The notes under the pieces were generated by a model. It was not told where the DNA came from. It saw nothing but the letters and a program-made list of their open reading frames with translations, and did no database searches. Below, piece by piece: positions 8,345 to 61,865 of a stretch of DNA of 64,000 nucleotides. The stretch comes from Pseudoclavibacter sp. AY1F1. GTDB taxonomy: Bacteria > Actinomycetota > Actinomycetes > Actinomycetales > Microbacteriaceae. Position numbers and translations under genes: made by a program. The first letter of the stretch is position 1, and every line of letters begins with the position of its first letter. The stretch covers positions 186,001 to 250,000 of the forward strand of contig NZ_PSTQ01000003.1 in NCBI RefSeq assembly GCF_002931075.1, in the 5' to 3' direction.

Positions 8345-8416
8345 CCAACTTGCGTGATGAATCGGCCGTTGCAGCGTGGATCGCGGCGCCCGGGGCTCAC
8401 TCATCACGGAAGCTGG
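8345..8416. repeat. 72-bp inverted repeat, copy 1
   Basis: Begins CCAACTTGCGTGATGA and ends TCATCACGGAAGCTGG, so the outer 16 bases pair with two mismatches. The length is exactly 72 bp like the copies at 8462, 44710 and 61794. It lies six bases after the rbsK stop, on the 3' side of two convergent genes, and may also serve as a transcription terminator. Confidence 0.8.
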
Positions 8417-8461
8417 CCACCGGTCGGGGCGCGCGGCGGTGACTTGCTGCGAAGGCGCTGC

Positions 8462-8533
8462 CCAACTTCAGTGCAATATCGAGGCCAGTGGCGCCCAAAC
8501 GGCCCTTTCGGGCCAATATTGCACTGAAGTTGG
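8462..8533. repeat. 72-bp inverted repeat, copy 2
   Basis: Arms CCAACTTCAGTGCAATAT and ATATTGCACTGAAGTTGG pair perfectly over 18 bases; a second small hairpin (GGCCC-TTTC-GGGCC) sits inside. It is followed by ACAGGC, which is also found after the copy at 44710. It is 45 bases from copy 1 and 17 bases from the stop of the convergent dehydrogenase gene. Confidence 0.85.
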
Positions 8534-8550
8534 ACAGGCAACCCGGCTGA

Positions 8551-9789
8551 CTAGTTCGCCAGCTCCGCGCTGCGGTCCTGCACATGCCACGGAGAGCCGT
8601 AGCCGGCCGGTTCGGCCGAGCCGAGCAGCTCGAGGAACGGCCTCGCGTCGAACGCCTCAGGCGCGAGCACTCCCGCGCCAGACCAGACGCCCGTCGCGAG
8701 CAGTTCGAGCGCGATGACGGGGTTGATGGCGGTCTGCCAGACGACGGCCTGCGAGTTGTCCTTCGCCATCGTCTCCTCGTTGTCGGCGACGTGGTACAGG
8801 TACACCTGCTTGGGCTCGCCGTCCTTGCCCTTGCCGGTGACGAGGAGGCCGGCGCACGTCTTGCCGCGCATCCGGTCGCCGAGCTTCGCCGGATCCGGGA
8901 GGACCGCGGCGACGACGTCGCGTGGCGACACCATCTGACCCTTGACGCTGACAGGCTCGGTGCTGTCGAGGCCAAGCGTGTGCAGCGTCTTGAGCACGTC
9001 GATGAACTCCTGGCCGAGCCCGTACTTGAAGGTGACGCGCTTCGCGTTGGTCCATCGCGGCATGAGGAGCACCTCCTCGTGTTCGACGTTCACGCATTCG
9101 ACGGGGCCGATGCCCTCGGGGAAGTCGAACACCTCGGCCTCACTGAACGGCGGTGTCGTGTACCAGCCGCGCTCGCGCTCGTAGATGACGGGCGGGTTGA
9201 GGCATTCCTCGATGGTCGTCCAGATCGAGAACGAAGGGGCGAAGTCGTAGCCCTCGACGGTCAGGTTCGCGCCGTCGCGCACGCCGAGCTCGTCGATCTC
9301 GGAGAAGAGCTCGTCTTCCGCGTAGCGGGCGAACACGTCGGAGAGGCCGGGTTCGACGCCGATGCCGCAGAGGGCGAGCACGCCGCGCTCTTTGAGGGCG
9401 GCGTCGTGCTCGAACTGCTCGTCGCCGAGCTTTACGCCGGTTTGCTCGTGCGGATGCTCGGGGTGCGGCTTCGAGAGGCTCATCGCCATGTCGAGGTAGG
9501 TGGCCCCGGCTGCGGTGACGCCCGTGAAGATGGGCATCACGAAGCGAGGGTCGACGGCGTTGAGCACGTGCGTGATGCTGTTGTCACGGACGAGGGCTTC
9601 GACGGCCGCCGGGTCGGACGCATCCACCTGTGCCGCTCGGAATCGGGGGTCGCCAAGCTCGGCGACGAGGTCTGCGGGGCGGGAAGGGTCGTAGTCAGCG
9701 ATGAGGCAGGAGCCGAAGAAGCTGCGTCGCTTCGCGATGCGGGCTGCAGCTGCGCCGACGCCTCCGGCACCGATGATGAGGATGTGCAC
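8551..9789 (-). CDS. Saccharopine dehydrogenase family protein
   Basis: NAD(P)-dependent enzyme of 412 residues. It opens with a Rossmann motif (ILIIGAGGVGAAAA) and contains VEPGLSD near residue 145, as in saccharopine, carboxynorspermidine and lysine 6-dehydrogenases. These enzymes make or break C-N bonds between amino acids and keto acids. The exact substrate cannot be read. The start is a GTG. The upstream neighbour on the same strand is an amino-acid permease, although a terminator separates them. An amine or lysine catabolic role fits the locus. Confidence 0.85.
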   Translation of the reverse strand: MHILIIGAGGVGAAAARIAKRRSFFGSCLIADYDPSRPADLVAELGDPRFRAAQVDASDPAAVEALVRDNSITHVLNAVDPRFVMPIFTGVTAAGATYLDMAMSLSKPHPEHPHEQTGVKLGDEQFEHDAALKERGVLALCGIGVEPGLSDVFARYAEDELFSEIDELGVRDGANLTVEGYDFAPSFSIWTTIEECLNPPVIYERERGWYTTPPFSEAEVFDFPEGIGPVECVNVEHEEVLLMPRWTNAKRVTFKYGLGQEFIDVLKTLHTLGLDSTEPVSVKGQMVSPRDVVAAVLPDPAKLGDRMRGKTCAGLLVTGKGKDGEPKQVYLYHVADNEETMAKDNSQAVVWQTAINPVIALELLATGVWSGAGVLAPEAFDARPFLELLGSAEPAGYGSPWHVQDRSAELAN

Positions 9790-9883
9790 GAATGGCCTTT
9801 CGTTGATTACGTGCTGGTGGATGTTGTGCTCGGCTCACGGGGGTGAACCGTGCGGTTGGTAGGTCACGGGGTGAAAAGAAGTT

Positions 9884-9905
9884 CGCCCCGCACGGAGGCG
9901 GGGCG
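9884..9905 (-). terminator. Terminator of the APC permease gene
   Basis: Eight-base-pair GC stem (9884-9891 with 9898-9905). Read on the minus strand it is followed by AACTTCTTTTC, a T-rich tract. It ends the permease transcript before the dehydrogenase gene. Confidence 0.75.
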
Positions 9906-9918
9906 AGCATCCGGCGGA

Positions 9919-11442
9919 TCAGTCTTCCGGGGCGAGGAGTGCCGAGTGGCGGTTGATGGTGCGCTTCTCGAAGTAGTCCTTCGAGCCGGGCATCGCGGCC
10001 CAGATGAACATGAGGATGAAGCCGATGACAAACGAGCCGATGCCGATCACGAACGCGCTGCCGAGACCGAAGAACGTCGTGTAGCCGTACTCGGGGTTCG
10101 CCATGTCGATCGCCGACTGGATGAACGCCCACACCATGAAGATGCCGCCGAGCAGCGGGAACAGGAACCTGTAGAAGAAGTTCCGCGCCGAGGAGAAGAG
10201 GCTCGTCCGGAAGTACCAGATGCAGGCGAAGCTCGCGATGCCGTAGAAGAACGCGATGGCGAGGCCGATGGAGAGGATCGAGTCCTGCAGCACGCTGTTG
10301 GACACGAAGCTCATGCCGACGTAGTAGACGATGGCGACGATGCCCATGAGGAGTGTCGAGAATGTCGGGGTCTTCGACTTCTCGCTGACGACGGCGAAGC
10401 GCGCAGGCAGGGCCTTGTAGACGCCCATCGCGAAAGTGCCGCGGGCAGTGGGAAGGATCGTCGTCTGCGAGGACGAGAGTGACGAGACGGCGACGGCGAG
10501 CACGAGGAACCAGCCCCATGGGCCCATCGCCAGGTCGGTGAGCACGGAGAAGACGTCGTCGGCGTTCTCCTCGTTGGCGAGTCCGGTGCCGGAGTCGCCG
10601 AGGCCGGCGTACATCATGACGACGATCGTGATGCCGACGTACGTGACGAGGAGCAGCACCGTGGAGAGCACGGCCGCGCGGCCCGGGGTCTTCTTCGGGT
10701 CCTTGGTCTCCTCGGTCAGGGCGAGGCAGGTGTCCCAGCCCCAGTAGATGAAGAGGGCGAGGATGATGGCCTGCACCATGCCGTGCCCGTCGGCGAGCAG
10801 CGGGTTGAACCAGTCGATGCTGACGGGAGTCGGGTCAGGGGCCGTGCCGTTGGCGTAGCCGACGAGGCAGCCGACGACGAACGCGGCCATGGCGGCGTAC
10901 TGGATGATGAGCAGCACGACCTGCATCTTCTCGCCGAGCTCGATGCCGCGCATCGAGATCCACGTCATGACGGCGATGATGACGGCGCCGAAGAGGGTGA
11001 CCACGACGCGGTTCTCGGCGAGCGAGCCGTCGCCGATGAGCAGCAGGATGTAGACGGAGGCGATCTCGGCGAGGTTCGCCATGACCAGGATTCCGGCGAC
11101 CGCGAGGGCCCAGCCGGACATCCACCCGGTGCGAGGGCCGAAGGCCTTGGCCGCCCACGTGAAGACGGTGCCGCAGTCGTTGAGTTCGTTGTTGAGCTCG
11201 CGGTACGCGAAGGCGGTGAACATCATCGGGATGAACGCGAGGATGAACGCGATCGGTGCCTGCTCGCCGACGGCGATGACCACGAAGCCGAGGGTCGCGG
11301 CGAGCGAGAAGAGGGGGGCGGTCGAGGCGAGGCCGATGACGGTCGATCCCCAGATCCCGAGTCGCGCGGGGGCGAGCCCCTTGCCGATCGGTGTCTGGGT
11401 GGCGAGGGCCTCGGTAATGGGGCCGGGTTGTGCGTTGGTCAT
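9919..11442 (-). CDS. APC family amino acid/amine permease
   Basis: Membrane transporter of about 507 residues with about 12 hydrophobic segments. The segment ASTAPLFSLAATLGFV near the start and the conserved FTWAAKAFGPRTGWMSGWA identify the amino acid-polyamine-organocation superfamily. I choose ATG 11442 because GGGAGA stands about five bases upstream; a longer frame exists to 11460. A partly palindromic sequence at 11492-11509 could bind the TetR regulator encoded just upstream. Substrate unknown; an amino acid, N-methyl amino acid or polyamine is likely given the flanking oxidase and dehydrogenase. Confidence 0.9.
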   Translation of the reverse strand: MTNAQPGPITEALATQTPIGKGLAPARLGIWGSTVIGLASTAPLFSLAATLGFVVIAVGEQAPIAFILAFIPMMFTAFAYRELNNELNDCGTVFTWAAKAFGPRTGWMSGWALAVAGILVMANLAEIASVYILLLIGDGSLAENRVVVTLFGAVIIAVMTWISMRGIELGEKMQVVLLIIQYAAMAAFVVGCLVGYANGTAPDPTPVSIDWFNPLLADGHGMVQAIILALFIYWGWDTCLALTEETKDPKKTPGRAAVLSTVLLLVTYVGITIVVMMYAGLGDSGTGLANEENADDVFSVLTDLAMGPWGWFLVLAVAVSSLSSSQTTILPTARGTFAMGVYKALPARFAVVSEKSKTPTFSTLLMGIVAIVYYVGMSFVSNSVLQDSILSIGLAIAFFYGIASFACIWYFRTSLFSSARNFFYRFLFPLLGGIFMVWAFIQSAIDMANPEYGYTTFFGLGSAFVIGIGSFVIGFILMFIWAAMPGSKDYFEKRTINRHSALLAPED

Positions 11443-11491
11443 CGTTGTCTCCCGCATCAAAGGGCCTGCCGCGTTCGCGGAGTGAGCATGA

Positions 11492-11509
11492 ACTTACCAT
11501 TTGGTCGGT
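11492..11509. promoter_or_regulatory. Candidate TetR operator upstream of the permease
   Basis: ACTTACCATTTGGTCGGT is an imperfect palindrome around ACCA-TT-TGGT. The 7-mer TACCATT recurs in the gap between tetR and the oxidase gene (minus strand, about 12155-12161). Position and shared core suggest one regulator for both sides; this is inference. Confidence 0.35.
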
Positions 11510-11606
11510 GACTCGCCGAGTGTTTTCCGGCATCCCGCCGTAACGGTTGTGTTTCCGGACTCGAGCGGATGCGCGGAGACGGGCCCCGCGACGACAAGAC
11601 AGCCAG

Positions 11607-12149
11607 CTACGCGCGGAGCTGCTCGATCGCGCTCATGATCTCGGCGGTCGACTCCGCATTGATGAACTTCTCGCTGCCAGCCGACACGCTCAGGAGGGCG
11701 TTGTGGTTCATGCCGTCACCGACGAACAGCACGAGGCGGGCGACGGCGGCATTGCCGATAGCCCGCACGAGCGCGTCGTACCAGCCTTCGCGGCACTGAC
11801 GGAGCACGTCGAGCGCGTCCCTGTCGCCGGTTTGCGCGAGACGGTAGACGGCTTCGACGAGGCGCTCGAGGAGACTGTCGCGATCCTGCGAGGAGACGAT
11901 GTAGTACGAGACGGCGTTGTCGAGGTCGGCGAGCATGTTGTCGGCATCGACACGCGCCTGCGCCTGGAGTTCGGTGAGGAGCGCCTCGCCGAGCGCCTGC
12001 TTCGACGCGAAGTGGTGCAGGACGCCGGCCTTCGAGAGCTTGCAGGTCGTGCCCACGGCTTCGAGGGTCGTCCCGCGCACGCCGGAGTCGACGAGCAGGT
12101 TCATGTACGCGGTGAGAATCTTCTCCCGCTGACCGGAGACGGTGAGCAT
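11607..12149 (-). CDS. TetR family transcriptional regulator
   Basis: Regulator of 180 residues with an N-terminal helix-turn-helix (about 8-55), including LEAVGTTCKLSKAGVLHHFASKQAL, whose HHFASK part is typical of TetR proteins. The C-terminal ligand domain is not classifiable by eye. ATG 12149 gives the usual short N-terminus; an upstream in-frame extension is antisense to the oxidase gene and is rejected. It is divergent from the oxidase (52-base gap) and precedes the permease on the same strand, so it probably controls both. Confidence 0.9.
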   Translation of the reverse strand: MLTVSGQREKILTAYMNLLVDSGVRGTTLEAVGTTCKLSKAGVLHHFASKQALGEALLTELQAQARVDADNMLADLDNAVSYYIVSSQDRDSLLERLVEAVYRLAQTGDRDALDVLRQCREGWYDALVRAIGNAAVARLVLFVGDGMNHNALLSVSAGSEKFINAESTAEIMSAIEQLRA

Positions 12150-12201
12150 TCCGCAATGGTACCGATGAAGTGACCCGGGTGAGTGCGAGTAGCGTGAGGT
12201 C

Positions 12202-13377
12202 ATGACTGACGTTGACGTGCTCATCATCGGCGGCGGAGCGATGGGGCTGTCAACCGCGTGGCAGCTCGCACGGCGCGGCAGGCGAGTGCGGCTCCTCGAG
12301 CAGTTCCAGCCCGGCCACCACATGGGGGCATCCCACGGGGCCACCCGCAACTTCAACACCTCGTACACGCAGCCCGATCTTGTGGCGATGCTCCACGAGT
12401 CGCGTTCCCTCTGGAACGAGCTCGAGCTCGACTCCGGCAGGCAGATCCTCGACCTCGTCGGACTCGTGAACCACGGGACGGGCGCCGCGAGCCCCGACGT
12501 GCACGCCGCAATCTCCGCAGGCGGCGAGTCCGCCGAGCTGCTCTCGACGAAGGATGCGGGCGAACGGTGGCCCGGCATCCGCTTCGACACCGAGGTGCTG
12601 CACCTGCCGAGGGCCGGGCGGGTGCGGGCGGCGGATGCGCTCACGAGCATGGCCGAGCTGGCCGCGGCGAGCGGGGCCGAGCTGAGCTGGGGCAGACGTG
12701 CCGTGAGCGTTTCGGAGCACGACGACCGTGTTGTTGTCGAGGCGCACTCCTGGGGTGAAGCGCCTGAGCACCGTGGCCACGCCCGCGAGACGATCACGGC
12801 GAAGGTTGTCGTCTCGGCGGTCAACGCGTGGACCCGGACGCTGCTCGGAAGCGCCGTCGGGCTGCCGCGCATGCGTGTCACCCAAGAAGCTCCGGTGCAC
12901 TTCCGCGAGTTCAACGGCTACGTCGACTGGCCCAGCTTCAACCACCTGCCCGCGCTCGGCCGCCCCGGTTACGAGGGCTGGCTGTCCCCTGTCTACGGGA
13001 TGCTCACGCCCGGTGAGGGCATCAAGGCCGGCTGGCACGGGGTCGGTCCTGTCGTCGATCCGGATGCGCGCGACTTCCTGCCCGTGCGCGCGCAGCTCGA
13101 CGCGATCATCCAGTACGCGCGCGACTGGCTGCCGGGTGTCGACGCCGAAAGTGCGGAGCCCATCAGCTGCACCTACACGACCACCGATGACGCCAGGTTC
13201 GTGATCGACAGGGTGGGCCGAATCGTCGTGCTCGCCGGGTTCGCCGGGGAGGGGTTCAAGTTCGTGCCCTCGATCGGCCGTCTTGGTGCCGACCTTGCCG
13301 AGAACGGCCCCGGCGTCGCGCCAGAGCTCTTCTCAATCAGTCGCCCGAGGTCGATCGCCGGCGAGCCCCTGCGGTAG
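12202..13377 (+). CDS. Sarcosine oxidase / N-methyl-amino-acid oxidase-like flavoprotein
   Basis: FAD-dependent amine oxidase of 391 residues (DAO superfamily, monomeric sarcosine oxidase group). The dinucleotide motif is at 5-24 (LIIGGGAMGLSTAWQLARRG). The C-terminal pattern SCTYTTTDDARFVID places Cys323 where monomeric sarcosine oxidases bind FAD covalently, and GFAGEGFKFVPSIG follows. It likely oxidises an N-methyl amino acid, forming hydrogen peroxide and formaldehyde. TAGCGT at 12190-12195 lies seven bases before ATG, suggesting a leaderless transcript. A formaldehyde dehydrogenase is encoded at 14647, which could detoxify the product, although it is not in the same operon. Confidence 0.85.
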   Translation: MTDVDVLIIGGGAMGLSTAWQLARRGRRVRLLEQFQPGHHMGASHGATRNFNTSYTQPDLVAMLHESRSLWNELELDSGRQILDLVGLVNHGTGAASPDVHAAISAGGESAELLSTKDAGERWPGIRFDTEVLHLPRAGRVRAADALTSMAELAAASGAELSWGRRAVSVSEHDDRVVVEAHSWGEAPEHRGHARETITAKVVVSAVNAWTRTLLGSAVGLPRMRVTQEAPVHFREFNGYVDWPSFNHLPALGRPGYEGWLSPVYGMLTPGEGIKAGWHGVGPVVDPDARDFLPVRAQLDAIIQYARDWLPGVDAESAEPISCTYTTTDDARFVIDRVGRIVVLAGFAGEGFKFVPSIGRLGADLAENGPGVAPELFSISRPRSIAGEPLR

Positions 13378-13450
13378 CGCCTGCGCGACTCGGGCGTCCG
13401 CCGCCGGCCTGCGCGCATCCGCCACCGCCCGCCCTGGAAAGTGGCAGGTT

Positions 13451-13515
<65 letters not shown>

Positions 13516-13529
13516 CTCGCGCGGGGCGC

Positions 13530-14387
13530 CTACGCGGTCAGGGTGCGCAGCGTCTCCGCGAGCGGGGTCGTCGGGCGGCCCGACACGCGGGAGAGGTCAC
13601 CGGTCGTGAGTGAGAGGGCTCCGTCGCGGATGTTCGCGTCGAGGCCCGTGATGAAGCCGATCGTGCCTTCGTCGAGGCCGTTCGAGGTGAGCGCTGCCGC
13701 GTGCTCTTGCGTGGTCAGGGCGCGGTACTCGACGTCGCGTCCGATGGCCTCGGCGAGGGCTGCGGCGAACTCGTCGAAGTCCCAGGCTTTGTCGCCGGAG
13801 AACTCGTAGACCTTGCCTTCGTGGCCGTCTTCGAGGGCGATCGCCGCGAGGCCCGCTGCGTAGTCGGAGCGGGAGGCGCTCGCGACGCGTCCCTTGCCTG
13901 CGCTGTTCGCGATGACGCCCGTCGTCTCGCCCTGGGCGATGTCGGCGACGTAGTTCTCCGTGTACCAGCCGTTGCGCGCGATGGTGGCGGGCAGGCCGGA
14001 CTCGCGGATGAGGGACTCGGTCGCGACGTGTTCGGGGGCCAGGATGAGCGCATCCGGGTCGCCGCCGAGCACACTCGTGTAGACGATGCGGGCTGCACCG
14101 GCATCCTTGGCGGCGTTGATGACGGTCTCGTGCTGGGCGACGCGCGTTCCGACTTCGCTGCCGGAGATGAGGACAACGGTGTCGCCTGCGTTGATCGCCG
14201 CTGCCGCCGTCTCCGGCCGTGAGTAGTCGATGGTGGCGGTGCGCACGCCCTTCGCTGCGAGCAGCTCGAGGCGTTCGGCGTTTCGGCCGCCGGCCACGAT
14301 CTCGGTAGGAGCGGCGCCGCGCTCGATGAGGCTGTCGATGACGAGGGTTCCGAGCTGTCCGGTTGCTCCGGTGATGACGATTGCCAT
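13530..14387 (-). CDS. NAD(P)H:quinone oxidoreductase type 2-like (QorB/NmrA family)
   Basis: Atypical short-chain reductase of 285 residues. The start AIVITGATGQLGTLV is a nucleotide-binding motif, GGRNAER and the stretch SGSEVGTRVAQHETVI match the YtfG/QorB subgroup, and NGWYTENY (about residue 150) is a hallmark of it. QorB uses NADPH to reduce quinones and related electrophiles in the cytoplasm. The catalytic Tyr-x-x-x-Lys of classical SDRs is absent, as expected for NmrA-like proteins. It is divergent from the formaldehyde dehydrogenase, separated by 259 bases with no clear operator. Confidence 0.85.
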   Translation of the reverse strand: MAIVITGATGQLGTLVIDSLIERGAAPTEIVAGGRNAERLELLAAKGVRTATIDYSRPETAAAAINAGDTVVLISGSEVGTRVAQHETVINAAKDAGAARIVYTSVLGGDPDALILAPEHVATESLIRESGLPATIARNGWYTENYVADIAQGETTGVIANSAGKGRVASASRSDYAAGLAAIALEDGHEGKVYEFSGDKAWDFDEFAAALAEAIGRDVEYRALTTQEHAAALTSNGLDEGTIGFITGLDANIRDGALSLTTGDLSRVSGRPTTPLAETLRTLTA

Positions 14388-14646
14388 GCTGTGCTGTCCT
14401 TCCGAGAGTGGATGCTTGCAGCTACAACAACCCGGGGTCTGCTCGGGCTATTCCTGCTAAGCGTGCCGGACGAAACATGCCGTATCACCCGGGCCCCAGT
14501 CTGTGCATCCACTGGTCATCTGCTCCGAATCCTGGTGCGCCAGGTGGGCGCCCAATAGCCTCGAAATACTGCGTAACAGAGACGTTCGCAGGGGTGGGCG
14601 CGCGAGCGCACCACACGCACTACCCGCTCAACTCAAAGGAGAGATC

Positions 14647-15861
14647 ATGGCGAGTAACAGAGCCGTCGCGTACAAGGGGCCGAACGAGGTCGAGGTCATC
14701 GACATCCCGTACCCCGAGTTCGAGCTGAAGGATGGGCCGGGCGTGAACCCGGCGAACGTGGGGCGGCAGGTGCGGCACGGCGCGATTCTGCGCACGGTGA
14801 CGACGAACATCTGCGGTTCCGACCAGCACATGGTGCGAGGCCGCACCACGGCCCCGGTCGACCTCGTGCTCGGTCACGAGATCACGGGTGAGGTCATCGA
14901 GGTCGGGCCAGATGTCGAGTTCATTAAAGTCGGTGACATCGTGTCGGTGCCGTTCAACATCGCCTGCGGCCGCTGCCGTAACTGCAAGGCGGGCAAGACG
15001 GGCATCTGCCTGAACGTCAACCCGGACCGTCCCGGCAGTGCCTACGGGTACGTCGACATGGGCGGATGGGTCGGCGGGCAGGCCGAGTACGTGCTTGTGC
15101 CCTACGCCGACTGGAACCTCCTCAAGTTCCCGGACCGCGACCAGGCGCTCGAGAAGATCCTCGACCTGACGATGCTCTCTGACATCTTCCCGACGGGGTT
15201 CCACGGGGCTTACACGGCGGGCGTCGGCCCGGGGTCGACGGTCTACATCGCCGGCGCGGGCCCTGTTGGCCTTGCTGCGGCCGTGAGCGCACAACTTCTC
15301 GGTGCCGCGTGCGTCATCGTCGGAGATCTCAACGAGGAGCGCCTCGCGCAGGCCAGGTCGTTCGGGTGCGAGACGGTCGACGTCTCGAAGGGTGACCCGG
15401 GAGAGCAGATCGAGCAGATCCTCGGCGTGCCAGAGGTCGAGTGCGGTGTGGATGCTGTGGGCTTCGAGGCCCGCGGGCACGGCTCGGACGCGGGGCACGA
15501 GGCGCCGGCCACCGTGCTCAACTCGCTCATGACGGTGACGGAAGCCGGTGGAGCGCTCGGCATTCCGGGGCTGTACGTGACGGGCGACCCGGGTGGAGTC
15601 GACGACGCCGCCAAGGTCGGCTCGCTGTCGATCCGCCTCGGCCTCGGCTGGGCGAAGTCGCTCTCGTTCACGACCGGCCAGTGCCCCGTCATGAAGTACA
15701 ACCGCCAGCTCATGCAGGCGATCCTCTTCGACAAGGTGAAGATCGCCGACGCCGTGCAGGCGACGGCCATCACCCTCGACGAGGCGCCGAAGGGCTACGC
15801 CGACTTCGACGCGGGAGCGCCGAAGAAGTACGTGCTCAACCCGAACGGCTACGTGAAGTAG
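14647..15861 (+). CDS. fdhA: Glutathione-independent formaldehyde dehydrogenase
   Basis: Zinc-dependent, NAD-linked medium-chain dehydrogenase of 404 residues. The catalytic zinc site includes Cys56 (NICGSDQHM) and His77-Glu78 (GHE). The structural zinc cysteines are in ACGRCRNCKAGKTGIC, the Rossmann motif is AGAGPVGLAAA, and the insertion and C-terminal pattern match Pseudomonas-type FdhA, which oxidises formaldehyde without added glutathione. ATG 14647 has AAAGGAGAG just before it, so the longer frame to 14503 is rejected. It could oxidise formaldehyde made by the sarcosine-oxidase-like enzyme upstream. A 45-bp perfect hairpin follows the gene. Confidence 0.92.
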   Translation: MASNRAVAYKGPNEVEVIDIPYPEFELKDGPGVNPANVGRQVRHGAILRTVTTNICGSDQHMVRGRTTAPVDLVLGHEITGEVIEVGPDVEFIKVGDIVSVPFNIACGRCRNCKAGKTGICLNVNPDRPGSAYGYVDMGGWVGGQAEYVLVPYADWNLLKFPDRDQALEKILDLTMLSDIFPTGFHGAYTAGVGPGSTVYIAGAGPVGLAAAVSAQLLGAACVIVGDLNEERLAQARSFGCETVDVSKGDPGEQIEQILGVPEVECGVDAVGFEARGHGSDAGHEAPATVLNSLMTVTEAGGALGIPGLYVTGDPGGVDDAAKVGSLSIRLGLGWAKSLSFTTGQCPVMKYNRQLMQAILFDKVKIADAVQATAITLDEAPKGYADFDAGAPKKYVLNPNGYVK

Positions 15862-15924
15862 CTTTTCGCGCGCCCCTCCGGGGCTCGGTCGGGAGGCGAT
15901 AAACCGCGACAGAGCGTGGACGGA

Positions 15925-15969
15925 GTCGAGCCTCGCAGTGCAGGGATGGACTGCACTGCGAGGCTCGAC
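15925..15969. repeat. 45-bp perfect inverted repeat behind fdhA
   Basis: 19-base arms (15925-15943 and 15951-15969, beginning GTCGAGCCTCG) pair without mismatch around a 7-base loop. There is no T-tract. It may stop transcription between fdhA and the hydrolase gene, or be a further member of the dispersed hairpins. Confidence 0.8.
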
Positions 15970-16104
15970 ATTGATGTGACGCGTTTTGTCGTTCGTCGGG
16001 TCCGGCGTCGCTCGATGGGCGCAATGTCGGACGTCGGGTGCAGACTGTCCTCGTATTCGAGTGCGGCATCGGCGCCGGCGCTCGTTGGCACTAGGGGAGT
16101 AGAC

Positions 16105-17204: not shown

Positions 17205-17230
17205 CGTTGACGTTGGCGCTGACGTTGGCG
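17196..17230. repeat. GACGTT hexanucleotide repeat
   Basis: Five imperfect copies of GACGTT/GACGTTGGC starting within the last codons of the DUF3253 gene and continuing past its stop. It appears to be slippage-derived. Confidence 0.7.
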
Positions 17231-17344
17231 TGGCTGGGCCGAGAGGGCGGCCGTTGAGGGCTCCCCGCCCGGTAGCCGCCCCGTCTCAGAACCGGGCCTC
17301 TCGGGTCAGGGCGGTTCGCCCTGGCATCAGCCCCGGCCCTGGCA

Positions 17345-24858: not shown

Positions 24859-24920
24859 ATCGCTGCCAGCCAAATCGCCCTCTGGCGCACCTGCCAGAGG
24901 GCGATTCGACTGGCAGCGAT
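24859..24920. repeat. 62-bp inverted repeat, copy 1
   Basis: 28-base arms (24859-24886 and 24893-24920) pair with two separated lesions around a 6-base loop. It starts ATCGCTGCCAG and ends CTGGCAGCGAT. It is the best preserved of three copies (others at 30023 and 31015), all exactly 62 bp. It lies upstream of the GntR regulator gene and at the end of the remnant frame. Confidence 0.9.
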
Positions 24921-30022: not shown

Positions 30023-30084
30023 ATCGCTGCCAGCCGATTTGCCCTCCACGAGCGTCGTTGAAGGGCGCATCGGCTGGCGGCGAT
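30023..30084. repeat. 62-bp inverted repeat, copy 2
   Basis: Starts ATCGCTGCCAGCCGAT and ends ATCGGCTGGCGGCGAT. The outer 16 bases pair with one T-G wobble; the inner stem (CCACGA/TCGTTG) differs in sequence from copy 1. It lies between the convergent GntP and lipoprotein genes. Confidence 0.88.
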
Positions 30085-31014: not shown

Positions 31015-31076
31015 ATCACTGCCAGTCGATTGGCCCTCTGGAAGGGGCCCTGGACGGCCATTTGGCTGGCAGTGAT
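31015..31076. repeat. 62-bp inverted repeat, copy 3
   Basis: Starts ATCACTGCCAG and ends CTGGCAGTGAT. Compared with copy 1, the fourth base pair changed from G-C to A-T on both arms together, so the stem is kept by a compensatory change. The centre (GGCCCTCTGG / TGGACGGCC) is less regular. It lies 45 bases beyond the stop of the MFS gene. Confidence 0.88.
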
Positions 31077-44653: not shown

Positions 44654-44709
44654 GCAAGTCGGCCGGCCGGTTCGAGGGTTGCTGCACTGGTGATCTGCGC
44701 GACTTCTGT

Positions 44710-44781
44710 CCAACTTCAGTGCGATAACAAGCCGTGATGACCCGGGCGGGGCACTCAGAGCCAATTTTGCACTCATGTTGG
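44710..44781. repeat. 72-bp inverted repeat, copy 3
   Basis: Starts CCAACTTCAGTGCGATAA and ends TTTTGCACTCATGTTGG, followed by ACAGGC. The left arm is nearly identical to copy 2 (8462); the right arm has drifted, with three or four mispairs. It lies between the NUDIX gene and the promoter of the membrane protein gene. Confidence 0.85.
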
Positions 44782-44816
44782 ACAGGCGTTGCGAGTCGTC
44801 GAGCTTTGTTCTAAGT

Positions 44817-54732: not shown

Positions 54733-54796
54733 GCGCTGGGCGCTGGGCGCTGGGCGCTAGGCACTGGGGGCTGGGCGCTAGGCGCCTCGGCGCTGG
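54732..54796. repeat. GGCGCT minisatellite
   Basis: About eight imperfect 7-base units (GGGCGCT and variants) run from the stop of the lyase gene into the last codons of the convergent DoxX gene, which thus ends within the repeat. Confidence 0.85.
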
Positions 54797-55287
54797 AACG
54801 GCGTGAGCAGCGAGCGGCGGTCGCGCCAGGCAGCTGTCGACCAGAGCGCGAGCCCGATGAGCAGCACCTGGAACGGCAGGCGGATGAGCCGCGCCGCGTC
54901 GGTGTCCAGCCCGAACGCATCTGTTCCCGTCACGTACTGCGAGATGTTGCCGGGGAACACTGCGACGAAGAAGGCTGCGACGGTGAAGCCCACTGCAACC
55001 CGCCAGCGCCAGGCAACGATGAGGGCCAGCCCGAGCAGCACCTCCACGACCCCGGAGGCGAGCACCACGAAGTCGGCGTCGAGCGGCAGCCACGTCGGCA
55101 CCTGCGCCTGGAACTCCGCGCGGGCGAACGTCACGTGCGCGGTGCCCGCGAACAGCAGGAAGGCGCCGAGGACCACGCGTGCGATGGTCCGAGGCAGCGT
55201 GGTGCGGGGCGTGCGCGGCGCTCCGGAGGCGGAGGGATTGGCCTGCGAGCGTTCTGGTGAGTGTTCTGATGGTGTGGGGGACGGCAT
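54778..55287 (-). CDS. DoxX-like membrane protein
   Basis: Membrane protein of 169 residues with four hydrophobic segments. RVVLGAFLLFAGTAHVTFAR and the glycine-rich segment GVVEVLLGLALIV match the DoxX/DoxD-like superfamily, often linked to redox balance or thiol stress. ATG 55287 opens a Ser/Pro-rich N-terminus of about 30 residues. The C-terminal residues are encoded by the minisatellite. No ribosome binding site is obvious. Confidence 0.8.
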   Translation of the reverse strand: MPSPTPSEHSPERSQANPSASGAPRTPRTTLPRTIARVVLGAFLLFAGTAHVTFARAEFQAQVPTWLPLDADFVVLASGVVEVLLGLALIVAWRWRVAVGFTVAAFFVAVFPGNISQYVTGTDAFGLDTDAARLIRLPFQVLLIGLALWSTAAWRDRRSLLTPFQRRGA

Positions 55288-55430
55288 CCGCCAAGTCTGT
55301 GCCCTCACCCTGACCGATGAGTCCTGGCCAGGGGGCGCAGCTGTCTGCGCTGCAGGATTCCGGCCGCAAGTGTGAGCCAGCAACAGGCTCGCGAGCCGGC
55401 GAGCATGCGTCTCGCTCATTCTTGCCGGGG

Positions 55431-56417
55431 TCAGCGGCGCGAGAGCGTCTGCGCGGCGGGCTGCGGCGGCGCGAACTGCTTCGTCGCGATCAGCACGCCG
55501 ACGAAGATGAGCGGCACGATCCAGCCGGTCCAGCCGAGGATCGTCGCCTGCGTCGTGTCGACGCGCTCGCCCGCCGCCGCGAACAGCAGGTACGAGGCGG
55601 CTGCCGCGTTGAATGCGCCGTGCGCGAGCGCCGCCGGCCACACCGATGCAGAACGGATGCGAAGCCACGCGAACACCGCCCCGACCAGGATGCACATCCC
55701 CGTCATCATGGCCAGCCCGAGCCAGCCGGGCGCATCCAGGTAGTTGTAGCCGAGCAGGATCAGCGGGGCGTGCCAGAGCCCCCAGATCACACCGGAGATC
55801 AGCAGTGCGGGGACGGTGCCGAGCCGCAGAAGCTTCGGGAGAAGCCAGCCGCGCCAGCCGAGCTCCTCGCCGAGGGCGGGGATGACGTTCATGACGGCGC
55901 CAAGCGGGATGCTCGCGAGCTGCGCCAGCACGAGGAGCGCGATCGGCACGTCGATCTGGGGAATCTCCGTGCCGGTCGACGCGCTCGCTGCGGCCAGCTG
56001 CTGGTCGAGGATCGCCTGGTATCCGGAGAAGCTCACGAGGTCCATCGAGTACACGCCGAAGAGCGCGCCGATGGGGAGCGCGACGAGGACAAGCGCGACG
56101 GGGACGACAAGGGCGAGGGCGAGGTAGGAGATGAGTCTGCGCGCCGGCTTGAGCGGGACGACGCCGAGCGCGCGCCACGGCCTCGTCGGTCGCTCGACGA
56201 CGAACACCGCGACCAGCGCCGCAATGGCGGGCGTCAGCATCATCGCGATGGAGATGACCGTGAACCAGGGGTGCGCAAGGCCCTCGCCGAGCCACAGGGG
56301 CATCGTCACGAGCCACGCCAGCCCGAAGGCAAGGATGAGGAAGACGCCGACGGACAACTTCTCTCGGGTGGTCACAGAGCGGGCGGGGGATGCGGTCTGC
56401 GAGATCTGCTGCACCAC
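55431..56417 (-). CDS. CPBP family intramembrane metalloprotease
   Basis: Membrane protein of about 328 residues with eight hydrophobic segments. The conserved motifs are EELGWRGWLLPKL (EExxxR), ISGVIWGLWHAPLILLG with the second metal-binding His, and AHGAFNA with the third. CPBP proteins (Rce1/Abi type) cleave within membranes and serve in protein processing or self-immunity. I choose GTG 56417 since GAGAGG precedes it; a longer frame begins at 56450. No bacteriocin genes adjoin it. Confidence 0.88.
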   Translation of the reverse strand: MVQQISQTASPARSVTTREKLSVGVFLILAFGLAWLVTMPLWLGEGLAHPWFTVISIAMMLTPAIAALVAVFVVERPTRPWRALGVVPLKPARRLISYLALALVVPVALVLVALPIGALFGVYSMDLVSFSGYQAILDQQLAAASASTGTEIPQIDVPIALLVLAQLASIPLGAVMNVIPALGEELGWRGWLLPKLLRLGTVPALLISGVIWGLWHAPLILLGYNYLDAPGWLGLAMMTGMCILVGAVFAWLRIRSASVWPAALAHGAFNAAAASYLLFAAAGERVDTTQATILGWTGWIVPLIFVGVLIATKQFAPPQPAAQTLSRR

Positions 56418-56485
56418 GTCAGCCTCTCGTCCCAGCACGCGCGCTGTCAACGTGAGTCGGGGGTGCGGATACGCCAGAGAAACAA

Positions 56486-56517
56486 GGATGCCCCGCCCGT
56501 TTCCGAACGGGGCATCC
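56486..56517 (-). terminator. Terminator of the CNNM/CBS operon
   Basis: GGATGCCCCG (56486-56495) pairs with CGGGGCATCC (56508-56517). On the minus strand the stem is followed by TTGTTTCTCT, a T-rich tract, 23 bases after the stop of the preceding gene. Confidence 0.85.
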
Positions 56518-56539
56518 CGAGTGGGTTTCGAACGTGCGG

Positions 56540-57583
56540 TTACGCGGCTGCGGCGGTCGCGTTGACCTCTCCGACCAGCACTTCGAGGACGTCCTCGAGG
56601 AACAGGAGCCCCGTCACGTTGCCCTCGGAATCGAGGGCCTTCGCGACGTGCGCGCCGCGGTCGCGGAGCACCGCCATGGCGTCCTCGAGCTCCGCATCCC
56701 GTGACACGGAGACGAGGTTCCGCAGGCGCTTCTGCGGGATCGGGGCGGTGAACGCGTCAGCGCCCATGAGGTCCATGACGTCCTTCATGTGGATGTAGCT
56801 CGTCGGTTCGCCGCGCTCGTCGGTGACGACGTAGCGGGAGAAGCCGTGCTCGGCGACGGCCTTCTGCACGTCGATGGGCCGCGCGCCGGCCGGCAGGAGC
56901 ACCATCTCGGCGATCGGCACATCCACGTCGCTGACCTTCTTCTCCGTGAACTCGAACGCGCCCGCGAGCGTGCCGGACGTGTCGCTCAGCGTTCCCTCGC
57001 GGGTCGACTGCTCGACGATTCCGGCCACCTCCTCGAGCGTGTACGTGCTTGTCGCCTCGTCTTTCGGTTCGACCTTGAATAGGCGCAGCACGCCGTTCGC
57101 GATCGTGTTGAGGCTCCAGATGATCGGGTTGAAGATCTTGGAGACGACAACGAGGGGCGGGGCGAGGAGGAGGGATGCTCGGTCAGGTACCGAGAACGCG
57201 AGGTTCTTCGGGATCATCTCGCCGAACACCACGTGCAGGAACGTGACCAGTACAAGCGCCACGGCAAACGCGATCACGCTGATGACTTCGGCCGACAGCG
57301 CGGTGAGCCCAAGCGGAATCTCGAGGAGGTGGTGGATGGCCGGCTCTGAGACGTTCAGGATGAGCAGCGAGCAGACGGTGATGCCCAGCTGGCTGGTCGC
57401 CAGCATGAGCGTCGCGTGCTCCATCGCCCACAGGGTCGTCTTCGCGGCGCGGCTGCCCCGCTCGGCGAGGGGCTCGATCTGGGATCGCTTCGCGGAGATG
57501 ACTGCGAACTCGGCGCCGACGAAGAAGGCGTTGCCGATGAGGAGGACAAACAGCCACAGGATTCCGGGCAGGTACTCACTCAT
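56540..57583 (-). CDS. CNNM/DUF21 and CBS domain protein (hemolysin C family)
   Basis: Membrane protein of 347 residues: a CNNM/DUF21 transmembrane domain (about 1-180; FFVGAEFAVISAKRSQIEPLA) and two CBS domains (about 205-330). It lacks the C-terminal CorC/HlyC domain of its larger neighbour. The family transports or senses Mg2+ or Co2+; the old name hemolysin is misleading. The ATG overlaps the upstream stop by eight bases and the ribosome binding site GGAGGTG lies inside the upstream gene, so the pair is translated together and may form a heteromer. Confidence 0.9.
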   Translation of the reverse strand: MSEYLPGILWLFVLLIGNAFFVGAEFAVISAKRSQIEPLAERGSRAAKTTLWAMEHATLMLATSQLGITVCSLLILNVSEPAIHHLLEIPLGLTALSAEVISVIAFAVALVLVTFLHVVFGEMIPKNLAFSVPDRASLLLAPPLVVVSKIFNPIIWSLNTIANGVLRLFKVEPKDEATSTYTLEEVAGIVEQSTREGTLSDTSGTLAGAFEFTEKKVSDVDVPIAEMVLLPAGARPIDVQKAVAEHGFSRYVVTDERGEPTSYIHMKDVMDLMGADAFTAPIPQKRLRNLVSVSRDAELEDAMAVLRDRGAHVAKALDSEGNVTGLLFLEDVLEVLVGEVNATAAAA

Positions 57584-58955
57584 TGGTCATCACCTCCTTG
57601 ACTCGTTCGTGCGCTCTGTCGTGAGCGAGCTCCCGATTGCTCATGAGGCTCTGATCTCCGTCTGGCTCGTTTGGCAGGTAGCGGACCCGCACGATGCGGG
57701 TGCCGTCGATGCGCTCGACGCGCAGCGTGCCAGCCTCGATGGCGACCTCGTCGCCGAGCTCGGGCAGCCGCTCGAGGGTGTCCGTGATGAAGCCGCCGAC
57801 GGTGTCGTAGTCGCCGTCCTCCGGCACCTCGATGGCGAGGCGGTCGAGCACCTCGTCGGGGCGCCAGGACGCGTCGAACGTGACCGAGCGGCCGCGCCGG
57901 ATGAACCCGGTCTGGTGGCGATCGTGTTCGTCCTCGAGCTCCCCGACGATCTCCTCGACGAGGTCCTCGAGCGTGACGATGCCCGCCGTGCCGCCGTGTT
58001 CATCCACGACGACGGCCACCTGGTGCCGTTCGGCGCGCAGCAGGGTGAGAAGGGCGGATGCGCCCATCGACTCCGGCACGCGGAGTGCTTCGGTCTGCAG
58101 GTCGCGGGCCGTGACCTGCGTCTGCTGGTCGACGGCAACCGCGAAGGCCTGCTTGGCGTGCACGAACCCGGTGATGTTGTCGGGCGTGCCGTCGACGACC
58201 GGGAACCGGGAGTACCCCGTCTCGATGGCGAGGGCGATGATCGCCTGCGCCGTGTCGTCGACCTCGACGCTTGCCATGCGCACGCGGGGTGTCATGACGT
58301 CGGATGCGTCGTGCTCGGCGAACTTGAGGGTCCGTCGGAGCAGGGTCGCGTCGTCTTCCTCGAGGAGGCCGGAGAGCGCCGAGTGTCGGATCAGGTACGA
58401 GAGCTCGTCGGCGCTTCTGGCGCCGGAGAGCTCCTCCTTAGGTTCGATACCCATGGAGCGGATGATTGCGTTCGCCGTGTTGTTCAGGAGCAGGATCACG
58501 GGCTTGAACACCGTCGTGAAGAGCGCCTGGAACGGGATGACGACTTTCGCCGTCGCCCGGGGAAGGGCGAGCGCGAAGTTCTTGGGTACGAGCTCGCCGA
58601 TGATCATCGAGAACAGCGTCGCGAGGACGATGCCGACGATGGCTCCCACGACGGGGACGACGCCCGCGGGGATCCCGAGGCCCGTGAGGGGCTCCTCAAG
58701 GAGAGAGCTGACGGCCGGCTCGAACGTGTATCCCGTGAGCAGAGTCGTGAGCGTGATTCCGAGCTGCGCGCTGGAGAGGTGCGTCGACGTGATCTTCAGG
58801 GCCTTGATGGTGGGCCCGAGTCGCTTCTCTCCGCGGCTTTGCCGTTTTTCGAGTTCGTTTCGGTCGAGGTTGACGAGCGCGAATTCACTCGCGACGAACA
58901 ACCCGGTTCCGACAGTGAGAACGAGGCCGATGCCGAGCATCACCCATTCGTTCAT
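57576..58955 (-). CDS. CNNM/DUF21, CBS and CorC_HlyC domain protein
   Basis: Membrane protein of 459 residues. The CNNM domain (about 1-190) contains FVASEFALVNLDRNELE, two CBS domains follow (about 210-340; YSRFPVVDGTPDNITGFVH), and the C-terminal CorC_HlyC domain ends near 430. It is the full-length form of the family and probably handles Mg2+ or Co2+ export or sensing. Two paralogous CNNM genes in tandem are common in actinobacteria. Confidence 0.92.
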   Translation of the reverse strand: MNEWVMLGIGLVLTVGTGLFVASEFALVNLDRNELEKRQSRGEKRLGPTIKALKITSTHLSSAQLGITLTTLLTGYTFEPAVSSLLEEPLTGLGIPAGVVPVVGAIVGIVLATLFSMIIGELVPKNFALALPRATAKVVIPFQALFTTVFKPVILLLNNTANAIIRSMGIEPKEELSGARSADELSYLIRHSALSGLLEEDDATLLRRTLKFAEHDASDVMTPRVRMASVEVDDTAQAIIALAIETGYSRFPVVDGTPDNITGFVHAKQAFAVAVDQQTQVTARDLQTEALRVPESMGASALLTLLRAERHQVAVVVDEHGGTAGIVTLEDLVEEIVGELEDEHDRHQTGFIRRGRSVTFDASWRPDEVLDRLAIEVPEDGDYDTVGGFITDTLERLPELGDEVAIEAGTLRVERIDGTRIVRVRYLPNEPDGDQSLMSNRELAHDRAHERVKEVMTNE

Positions 58956-59131
58956 GCGTGGTGCCTCCAGACTGTGGCGGACGCGAGTGCGGCCGGAACG
59001 TCGAGAGGCTTGGGACTATGACTAGGAGGGTCTTCCATGAGGGGAGATTCTAGTTGGGCTTTGTTTGCCCGCAAGTCGGAAAGCTGGGGATCCGCCCGGC
59101 GTGACCTCTCGGTACCGCCGGGCGCAGGGCC

Positions 59132-60193
59132 TCAGGAGCTGGCGAGTGCCGCCTCTTCCCGCCCCTGCGAAGTCCAGGCCGGGTCTGCGGAGCGGTGGCC
59201 GACAACGCGTTCGGCGAGCCCGTCCAGCCGCTGCAGCTGGTCGCCGCTCAGCCCGAGGCCAACGGCGCGCAGGTTCTGCTCGACGCGCTTGGGGCTTCGG
59301 GTTCCGGGGATCGGGGAGACGCGGACGCCGAACTCGGCCGACTTCGCGTAGACCCAGGCGATGGCGACCTCGGCGACGGAGACGTGGTTGCCGTGCCGTT
59401 CGCCGAGCTCCTGCGCGACGGCCGCGACCTCACCGGCGAGTGCGCGGTTCACGAGCAGGTTCTCGGGGAAGAAGCGGGGGAAGTTGGCGCGCACGTTGGG
59501 GGCGACGGCGTCGAGCTCCGCCCACGAGTCGGTCAGCAGGCCGCGGCTGACGGGGGAGTAGGGCACGAATCCGGCCCCCACCTCGCGGATGGCGGGGATG
59601 ACGTGGTCTTCGAGGTCGCGGCTGAAGATGCTGTACTCGCTCTGGACAGCCGCGATGGGATGCACGGCTGCAGCGCGGATGATCTCGGCCCCCGTCGGCT
59701 CGCTCAGCCCGATGTGCCGCACCTTGCCCTCGGAGACGAGCTCGGAAACGAACCCGACAGTGTCCTCGATGGGCACGTTCGGGTCGACACGGTGCTGGTA
59801 GTAGAGGTCGATGTAGTCGGTGCCGAGGCGTTTGAGGGAGAGCTCGACCTGCTCACGGACGTGCTCGCGGTCGCCGCGCACGCCTCGTTTGCCGACGCCG
59901 TCGCCCTTCGTGATGCCGAACTTCGTGGCGAGCTGGATGCGCTCCCGCTGTGCCGGGAAGATCTTCGAGATGGTGCTTTCGCTGCGGCCGTCGCCGTAGA
60001 TGTTGGCCGTGTCGATGAACGTGATGCCCGCATCCACCGCATGCTGCAGCGTGCGCAACGCCTGCTCGTCGTCGATGGGGCCGTAGGCGTCGCTGAGGCT
60101 CATCGCGCCGTAGCCCTGCACAGTCGTGACGAGGCCGTCGCCGAGGAGGGTCGTGGGGAGCTGCGCTGCGGGGCCGTTCGTCTCGTGCGTCAT
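59132..60193 (-). CDS. Aldo/keto reductase
   Basis: NADPH-dependent reductase of 353 residues with a TIM barrel. The catalytic tetrad is seen in FIDTANIYG (Asp and Tyr), ATKFG (Lys) and YYQHR (His). The GYGAMSLSDAYGP start and IPGTRSPKRVEQNL near the C-terminus match the AKR13-like group that reduces aldehydes and ketones. It may share no function with neighbours. Start ATG 60193. Confidence 0.92.
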   Translation of the reverse strand: MTHETNGPAAQLPTTLLGDGLVTTVQGYGAMSLSDAYGPIDDEQALRTLQHAVDAGITFIDTANIYGDGRSESTISKIFPAQRERIQLATKFGITKGDGVGKRGVRGDREHVREQVELSLKRLGTDYIDLYYQHRVDPNVPIEDTVGFVSELVSEGKVRHIGLSEPTGAEIIRAAAVHPIAAVQSEYSIFSRDLEDHVIPAIREVGAGFVPYSPVSRGLLTDSWAELDAVAPNVRANFPRFFPENLLVNRALAGEVAAVAQELGERHGNHVSVAEVAIAWVYAKSAEFGVRVSPIPGTRSPKRVEQNLRAVGLGLSGDQLQRLDGLAERVVGHRSADPAWTSQGREEAALASS

Positions 60194-60269
60194 GCATCAA
60201 GTGTTGTGCGCACCACCGACATTCCGCCAGCGGCCACAGTCCCGGGGGTAACAGTCGCCCCAGTTCGCG

Positions 60270-61724
60270 CTACGCGCTCGCCTGCTTCACCTTGGCCGGC
60301 ACGGGGAGCATCATCAGGAAGCCGACGGCGAGCACGATGCCGATGCCGATGATGCCCATCTTCGGGTTGCCGGAGAGGAACACGAAGAGGCTGAAGAGGG
60401 CGGGGGTGATGAAGCTCGCAACCCGGTTCGTGGTCGCGTAGAGGCCGAACAGCTCGCCCTCGCGGCCGGGAGGCGTCGCTCGCGACAGATAGGAGCGGCT
60501 CGCGGCCTGCGCAGGTCCCACGAAGAGGCAGAGGGCGAGGCCGAAGATCCAGAAGACGGTCTGCTCTGAGGGCAGGAAGATGAGCACCACGGAGAACACG
60601 GTGAGCGAGACGAGCGACGCCATGATGACGAGCTTCGGCCCGAAGCGGTCGTCGAACCAGCCGGCCGCGAGGGTGCCGAGGCCCGCGACGAGATTCGCGG
60701 CGACCGCGAAGTAGATGACCTCGCTGGGCGCGAAGCCGTACACCTGCGCGGCGAGGATCGCCCCGAACGCGAAGATCGCCTGCAAGCCGTCACGGAAGAC
60801 GGCGCTCGCGGCGAGGAAGAGCAGGAGCTTCGGGTCGGTCTTCGCGAGCTTCCCGATCACCCGGAAGAGGACGCCGTAGGAAGCGAAGAAGCCCACCTTC
60901 GGTCGGTTCGTGTCCTTCGGGATCTCCGGAACCTTGAACATGACGGGCAACGCGAACACGACGTACCAGACTGCCGCGAGCACGATGGCGAAGCGGATGT
61001 CGAGCGCGCCCCCATCCATCCCGCTCGGCACCCCGAGTACGCCGTTCCGGCCCTCGGTGCCGAAGGATTGGATGAACAGCACCAGCAGGAGCACAAGCAG
61101 CACGATGCTGCCGAGGTAGCCAAGGCCCCAGCCGATGCCCGATATGCGGCCAACGTTCTTGGGTGTCGACACCTGCGAGAGCATGGCGTTGTAGTTGACG
61201 CCGCTCAGCTCGGCGAAGATCGTGCCGACCGCGAGCAGCAACGCGCCCCAGAACAGATACTCCTCGCCCGGCTGGATGAAGAACATGGCCAGCATGATGA
61301 GCACCGTGATGCCCGTGAAGATGCCGAGCCACAGCTTGCGCCTGCCAGAGCCGTCCGAGCGCTGCCCGAGCACGGGCGCGATGAGCGCGACGAGCAGGCC
61401 GGCGACGGTGCTCAGGTTCGCGATGACGTTGGTGGATGCGGCTTGCGCGGCCAGGTATTGCGGGTCGAGGGGGTTCGCGTCGCCGAGAGCTGCGACCTGC
61501 GGGTCGATGAAGAGGTCGCTTGCCAGGTAGGTCGCGAAGACGAACGTGACGACGACAGCCTGGAAGGCGGAGTTGCCGACATCCCAGAGCGCCCAGGCGG
61601 TCGCCCGCTTCTTCAGCTCCTTCGGCGTGACCGCCACACCGCCGTCGACGGTCTCGACCCGCCCGCTCGGAGTCGGGTCGCTGGGGGAGGGTGCACCGTC
61701 GTCGGCGCGGCCTGGGAGTGCCAT
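60270..61724 (-). CDS. MFS transporter, UMF1 family
   Basis: Transporter of 484 residues with 11-12 membrane segments. WALWDVGNSAFQAVVVTFVF and LSGVNYNAMLSQVSTPKNVGRISGIGWGLGYLGS are the marks of the UMF1 family, related to the yeast vacuolar amino-acid effluxer Atg22. Substrate unknown in bacteria. The hydrophilic N-terminus of about 35 residues is acidic. ATG 61724 is followed by Pro/Ser-rich sequence; an internal start is possible. Confidence 0.88.
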   Translation of the reverse strand: MALPGRADDGAPSPSDPTPSGRVETVDGGVAVTPKELKKRATAWALWDVGNSAFQAVVVTFVFATYLASDLFIDPQVAALGDANPLDPQYLAAQAASTNVIANLSTVAGLLVALIAPVLGQRSDGSGRRKLWLGIFTGITVLIMLAMFFIQPGEEYLFWGALLLAVGTIFAELSGVNYNAMLSQVSTPKNVGRISGIGWGLGYLGSIVLLVLLLVLFIQSFGTEGRNGVLGVPSGMDGGALDIRFAIVLAAVWYVVFALPVMFKVPEIPKDTNRPKVGFFASYGVLFRVIGKLAKTDPKLLLFLAASAVFRDGLQAIFAFGAILAAQVYGFAPSEVIYFAVAANLVAGLGTLAAGWFDDRFGPKLVIMASLVSLTVFSVVLIFLPSEQTVFWIFGLALCLFVGPAQAASRSYLSRATPPGREGELFGLYATTNRVASFITPALFSLFVFLSGNPKMGIIGIGIVLAVGFLMMLPVPAKVKQASA

Positions 61725-61793
61725 GCGCGGATTCTATGCGCGTGAGGCGGCGCGGAGGGGAACAGTGGTGAGGGCAGTGGTGAAGGCAGCCGA

Positions 61794-61865
61794 CGAACTT
61801 CGGTGACAACTGTGGCGCAGCGCGCTCGAAACGAGCAGAAAGGGCCGAGTTGTCACCGAAGTTTG
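61794..61865. repeat. 72-bp inverted repeat, copy 4
   Basis: Starts CGAACTTCGGTGACAACT and ends AGTTGTCACCGAAGTTTG: 18 bases pair fully, including one G-T pair, though the stem sequence differs from the other copies after AACTT. It is 17 bases from the stop of the substrate-binding protein gene and upstream of the UMF1 gene. Confidence 0.85.

Follow-up and report, generated by a model that had tools for sequence, protein, structure and literature searches.

The subject of this analysis is a set of short inverted repeats in a 64,000-nucleotide stretch of the genome of Pseudoclavibacter sp. AY1F1 (contig NZ_PSTQ01000003.1, positions 186,001 to 250,000 of the forward strand; hereafter the window). 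In the labels used below, the window is G000:C23:186001-250000 and G000 is its own genome (4.1 Mb, 29 contigs), while G002, G005 and G007 denote P. helvolus DSM 20419, strain RFBB5 and strain AY1H1, respectively. A previous reading of the letters alone (the sequence-only reading) had pointed out four intergenic inverted repeats of 72 bp with recurring ends. All four were verified in position and in their ends, and it was confirmed that they are real and belong to a dispersed family. The ends were assigned to types by positions 9 and 13 of the arm, type A having A and C at these positions, type C having C and A, and type G having G and A.

Element 1: 8345..8416, no strand assigned; 72-bp inverted repeat with type C ends (left GCGTGA, right CCGTGA)
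Element 2: 8462..8533, no strand assigned; 72-bp inverted repeat with type A ends (CAGTGC)
Element 3: 44710..44781, no strand assigned; 72-bp inverted repeat with type A ends and CTG..CAG flanks (44706-44785)
Element 4: 61794..61865, no strand assigned; 72-bp inverted repeat with type G ends (CGGTGA)

The sequence-only reading had placed three copies within 60 bases of a gene 3' end, and this was actually true of all four. Element 1 lies 5 bp past the stop codon of a gene for a PfkB-family kinase, and its partner, element 2, lies 17 bp off the 3' end of a gene encoding saccharopine dehydrogenase domains. Element 3 is located 56 bp past the 3' end of a gene with a NUDIX domain, and element 4 is located 16 bp off that of a family 5 solute-binding protein gene (names taken from Pfam, gene calls by our own script). 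The palindrome of element 2 extends outward as CTG..CAG (8458-8537). An element pair occupies the site of elements 1 and 2 in all five element-bearing species, and element 4 has an ortholog in P. helvolus (G002:C3:134050). Stem pairing over 16-18 bases, scored over the outer 20 positions with G-U counted, held for copies 1 (16) and 4 (18); copy 2 was higher (19) and copy 3 weaker (14).

Size, fixed length and distribution of the family

A scanner requiring an end match of at least 14/20, a length of 68-77 bp and a total including pairing of at least 22 detected 91 copies in 1,597,152 bases from five Pseudoclavibacter genomes, when compared with 3 in the reversed sequence. The sequence-only reading had allowed for a chance-level copy number and for widely scattered lengths, and neither was found: 82 of the 91 copies measured exactly 72 bp and the other nine 71 or 73 bp, though the whole range of 68-77 bp was permitted. 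When the length was fixed at 72 bp and the pairing filter switched off, 83 places in 1.6 Mb carried 15-20 of the 20 end letters, with none in the reversed control and a background of end scores topping out at 14/20. A 64-bp copy is known at locus L009, the apparent orthologs of which in G002 and G007 are 72 bp long. At least one of the 91 copies is probably a chance match, namely G002:C3:459027, which lies within a gene and is missing in all four other species.

The arms occur as doublets. Within 2.4 Mb, 91 of 93 exact arms sit in a full element, and one of the remaining two is a leftover arm adjoining an element. The exact arm pattern gave 55 matches in the window's own genome (controls, 1 and 0), consisting of 40 arms that form opposite-strand pairs at a spacing of 62-64 bp, 8 single arms in known elements and 7 that were left unread. 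The simpler pattern CAACTTN{40,70}AAGTTG occurred there at nine places (control pattern, one), two of which, with 54 and 59 letters, lie outside the 72-bp family.

A covariance model built from 14 copies detected the family in five of the ten genomes of the genus, and under stricter filters matches at 1e-6 were found in those five alone among 398 Microbacteriaceae genomes. Element 2, itself in the seed of the model, was the top match among those listed (E 5e-16). Among the matches listed, the model placed the family at 34 or more sites in G001, at least 14 of them in G001:C1:1-400000, where the scanner found 19. The pattern CAACTTNNGTG-N48-CACNNAAGTTG matched 35 stretches in named bacterial and archaeal genomes, 31 of which were in Pseudoclavibacter (helvolus 14, AY1H1 10, RFBB5 5, terrae 2); the other four, in three unrelated genera, are about what chance would yield, by our estimate, when a pattern with 18 fixed letters is run over 257 billion bases. 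G001 and P. terrae have an identical element in common. These results demonstrate a real, non-random family restricted to one clade. Carriage by phages or plasmids was rejected, as element 2 gave no match in phages or plasmids and the exact pattern was not found in viral contigs. The strict pattern also matched palindromic arrays with AACTTNCGTGTT ends in a metagenome-assembled genome of Mediterranea (L087 3903-3996 and L106 5595-5687), which appear to be another repeat family.

Of the 91 elements, 9 lie within called genes; the others are flanked by tandem (44), convergent (30) or divergent (8) genes. The background of intergenic regions of at least 90 bp comprised 405 tandem, 140 convergent and 214 divergent regions; convergent positions were thus enriched (30/82 vs 140/759, p 2.5e-4) and divergent ones depleted (p 1.8e-4). 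The minimum distance of an intergenic copy to a called 5' end was 39 bp. One site accounts for five of the nine in-gene copies, a 72-bp element situated in a variable linker of a gene that we name, from its sequence, as nadB-like (putative L-aspartate oxidase) in all five species.

nadB-like site: G002:C3:396235, G005:C7:206416, G001:C1:105939, G000:C2:6248 and G007:C24:33718; in-frame elements

The element at this site is of type A in four species (one arm being off-type in P. helvolus) and of type C in G007, and the nadB-like homolog in G004, an element-free genome, lacks it. A 73-bp element also lies within a called gene at G005:C7:375833 and G001:C1:275653, the former falling in what we read as an ABC transporter protein that has two ATPase domains.

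The density differs along the chromosome. P. helvolus has 24 copies in the 400 kb of C3:120001-520000 and 4 in the 800 kb of C1:1-800000 (control, 1; p 1.6e-8), the coding fractions being 0.847 and 0.870, respectively. An extrapolation from dense regions to approximately 220 copies per genome was therefore wrong. In the window's own genome, dnaA is located at G000:C23:71002, approximately 115-180 kb from the window, and synteny chained across unfinished contigs would place the dense part to one side of dnaA, at a very rough distance of 0.3-0.7 Mb. A full dnaA was not found in the P. helvolus assembly; four weak matches to the DnaA model (G002:C1:586372, 787368, 943175 and 1403990) are perhaps IS21-type helper ATPases.

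Anatomy and conservation of the hairpin

The consensus was derived from 129 distinct copies of exactly 72 bp, two of which are the non-family matches from Mediterranea. Both ends read CTGD-CCAACWTSNGTG in inverted orientation, and the middle is free in sequence and constrained in length. Read inward, the arm is C-T-G-D-C-C-A-A-C-(T/A)-T-(C/G)-N-G-T-G-(A/C), followed by a weak AAtCGGcc. Cross-arm pairing in the 91 elements was 0.89 at letter -2, 0.75 at letter -3 and 0.38 at letter -1. The same type was present at both ends in 108 of the 129 elements (A 49, C 44, G 15), and 21 were mixed or other.

The whole 80-nt unit folds as a hairpin at a mean of -22.7 kcal/mol when compared to -10.8 kcal/mol for shuffled sequences (DNA parameters, n=129), while single 28-nt arms fold no better than shuffled ones (-1.67 vs -2.21, n=258). 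No palindrome like that of repetitive extragenic palindromic (REP) sequences was detected in the arm, as the strongest covarying pair within it, 9 with 13, pairs in 3% of copies. Positions 9 and 13 covary within one arm too and hence mark subfamilies, which weakened cross-arm covariation as strong proof of a stem. Within types, cross-arm covariation was modest (z of about 3-6 at positions 6, 7, 14, 15, 17 and 18, among related and non-independent sequences) and absent at position 8. A GTAG-like end tag was absent, the outer consensus being CTGD, and no T-run follows the stem, where the consensus is GGHCAG.

Orthologous places were compared between species in 108 comparisons, counted in both directions. 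In addition to these, 7 comparisons were set aside as deleted, and 135 were skipped because the interval was too long or because the two intervals were unequal in length by over 60 bp. Identity was 0.96 for the outer CC/GG, 0.84 for AACTT, 0.88 for NN and 0.91 for GTG, and 0.79 for positions 13-20, 0.72 for the interior and 0.71 for the 30-bp flanks. The ends were accordingly better conserved than the middle. The length was protected as well: in pairs with at least 58% matching element letters, gap openings per mismatch were 0.059 in elements vs 0.184 in flanks for the far comparisons (76), and 0.051 vs 0.077 for the close ones (30). The family shows a fixed length maintained while the intervening sequence drifts.

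Double changes that kept a pair were counted in 90 ortholog pairs with at least 58% identity. There were 57 in register, when compared with 21, 15 and 24 in registers slid by 1-3, although these changes are partly type changes and the ortholog pairs are non-independent. Selection on a folded form, which the sequence-only reading had suggested, thus received moderate support from the excess over the slid registers, with the reservation that arm-to-arm covariation mostly reflects subfamily type. Its folded-RNA part was not demonstrated; G-U exceeded A-C in the transcribed sense by 55 to 39, which is no more than suggestive (p 0.065).

Signs of movement and competing explanations

A type C element at G002:C3:506442 is located within an apparent type A element. 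Excision of 82 bp restores a type A-like element of 72 bp with end scores of 8 and 9 of 10; none of 2600 positions in a random excision control reached this end sum, the best being 15. G007 retains the type A left arm at this place. The arrangement appears best read as an insertion of type C into type A, and by our reading it allows a 3-bp target duplication if the host element was 71 bp long. The element at G002:C3:494943 is present in one of the five species, with no clean empty site in the comparison. The presence of type C in G007 at the nadB-like site, where the four other species have type A, likewise counts in favour of mobility. Tandem duplicates were also found, for example at L103 6150/6290, L057, L119 and G007:C24:171543-171866. 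An impression that neighbouring copies are mostly of unlike type was dropped, as the excess was unconvincing once orthologous loci and tandem duplicates had been collapsed by eye.

Taken with the dispersed doublets and a layout as in REPINs, these observations make a small non-autonomous mobile element of the REP or miniature inverted-repeat transposable element (MITE) kind, as proposed in the sequence-only reading, the best-supported interpretation. We consider it fairly likely that the family is a REPIN-like hairpin element that is mostly old and mobile at a low rate. Its two inverted conserved ends, approximately 16-20 bp each and at a fixed distance, would be recognised by a trans-acting protein, probably acting as a dimer, and the middle would be retained for length and folding alone. 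The whole unit of roughly 72-82 bp would be moved, mostly into the space behind genes, and the three end types may represent three specificities. Most copies would be old and vertically inherited, having also been reshaped by tandem duplication and by exchange of arms or whole elements.

Several observations weigh against this interpretation. The strong regional clustering has no account in it. In the closest pair, G001-G005, identity of AACTT (0.87) was near-equal to that of the interior (0.85). Non-orthologous copies in the same genome reached an interior identity of 0.69 at most, with a median best of 0.54 (shuffled, 0.40); as no near-identical copies at different loci occur in the sampled contigs, no recent transposition was seen. 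The 91 elements, mostly old insertions, showed no clear excess of direct repeats as target-site duplications. The element restored from the nested case has 3 of 10 scored inner pairs, which slightly lowered our confidence in the interpretation, and two other places, each with an end sum of 14, outrank it by total score; we take these two as chance. The REP-associated tyrosine transposase (RAYT, a Y1 transposase) that the sequence-only reading proposed to look for (PF01797) was found in none of the ten genomes of the genus, whereas 5 of 14 control genomes were positive. A RAYT-driven REPIN in the strict sense was set aside for this reason, and a mobilising enzyme, if present, would be other than Y1. 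No candidate mobiliser emerged from the search, which covered PF01797 alone.

The exact spacing, together with ends that are conserved between species around a drifting middle, would also suit binding sites of a chromosome-organising or topology-handling protein, with inverted half sites 72 bp apart that are bound by one or more dimers and kept by the host. A gyrase-related host role has been proposed for bacterial interspersed mosaic elements. Letters -1 and 8, without cross-arm covariation beside fixed neighbours, suit protein contacts over a plain stem, and both the enrichment between convergent genes and the difference in density between regions of the same genome fit such sites. We nevertheless regard this explanation as unlikely, because the nested arrangement, the presence or absence between species, the tandem duplication and the copy in nadB resemble mobile DNA, and because the arms occur almost exclusively as doublets.

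Hairpins that end or stabilise transcripts, acting as RNA on one or both strands, would account for the position behind genes, the stable fold of the 80-nt unit and the excess of pair-keeping changes in register. This explanation is rather improbable in view of the missing T-run, the just suggestive excess of G-U over A-C, the copies within reading frames and the exact total length, which RNA stems do not require. Moreover, a separate strong hairpin lies beyond G001:C1:210244, and G007, which is element-less at that place, has a strong hairpin there too. An Rfam scan of the window detected one tRNA alone and no family match to the elements, and identity with an Rfam RNA was rejected. Still less probable are dead and drifting relics of a classical MITE derived from an insertion sequence of the DDE type that had TG..CA ends. 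The long inverted ends with paired outer TG..CA and the lack of recent copies in the sample agree with such relics, but no longer element with the same ends was found in 2.4 Mb, and none was apparent from the exact-arm coordinates in the window's own genome, where 7 of 55 arms were unread. In a dead relic, the ends should also decay at the same rate as the middle, in contrast to the better-conserved ends observed here, and the end scores show a bimodal distribution in which a decayed class is absent.

The window contains further inverted repeats. A second family of three copies, each exactly 62 bp (24859-24920, 30023-30084 and 31015-31076), has the ends ATCRCTGCCAG..CTGGCNGYGAT, and repeats of 61-62 bp with end scores of at least 19/22 occur in contigs of G001, G005 and G002 (for example, G001:C1:332691 and G005:C7:292209). 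A 108-bp inverted repeat at 4890-4997, with 27-bp arms that are 93% complementary, resembles this 62-bp family in its letters (TTGCCA, GAGGGCGA).

Comparison with known systems

No prior description of the 72-bp family was found among the papers listed in searches of the open-licence literature. Integron attC sites likewise are imperfect palindromes behind genes with AAC..GTT near their ends, and their boxes read RYYYAAC..GTTRRRY. The arms of the 72-bp family are symmetric, in contrast to attC, and letter -1 is a purine (A or G) in 62% of them, which breaks the RYYYAAC box; this identity was therefore rejected.

Type II MITEs, in excerpts of a review (PMC10969869), share terminal inverted repeats, the lack of a gene and a similarity that is strongest at the ends. 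The 72-bp family differs from that account in that no target-site duplication was seen and no related insertion sequence was found, and in that its length is protected and its ends are kept after insertion. The same review excerpts treat the Rickettsia palindromic elements together with MITEs and describe some of them in frame within reading frames, as for some copies here; they measure approximately 150 bp, in contrast to 72 bp. CGTC-tagged REPs are palindromic repeats that were reported to have no dedicated transposase (PMC3733652). The 72-bp family lacks the CGTC end tag and forms a single unit of 72 bp, unlike the 20-40 bp monomers, which may pair, of that account.

The closest likeness is to REPINs, which are REP doublets that form a hairpin. 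According to the excerpts of PMC3116915, the GI REPIN of Pseudomonas fluorescens SBW25 has invariant inverted 16-mers with first letters 71 bp apart, the length and folding of the spacer matter, compensatory changes occur, and three flavours (GI-GIII) each adjoin their own RAYT. As far as these excerpts go, the 72-bp family shares two inverted conserved ends at a near-constant distance, a less conserved spacer whose length and folding are kept, compensatory changes, three flavours, an extragenic position and some clusters. Both occur mainly as doublets able to fold as a hairpin. The 72-bp family differs in that no RAYT or Y1 gene was detected in the genus, in that its arms have neither a REP palindrome nor a GTAG tag, and in its restriction to one actinobacterial clade. 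It was not filed as a REPIN, because a RAYT, palindromes in the arms and the GTAG tag are all missing.

We tentatively put forward a class of REPIN-like elements moved by a non-RAYT enzyme, comprising fixed-length hairpins that have matched end types, lack an internal REP palindrome, have persisted for as long as the five-species clade and are concentrated in a single region of the chromosome. The kind of element is already known; the lack of a known enzyme is unusual. If such a mobiliser exists, the REPIN way of life would have evolved more than once, with different enzymes. As five genomes of the genus have the elements and five do not, comparing the two groups offers a way to look for the responsible gene. 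A dedicated transposase-like gene accounts for REPINs, and the same anatomy where no such gene was found offers a clean system for asking what moves such elements and what keeps them.

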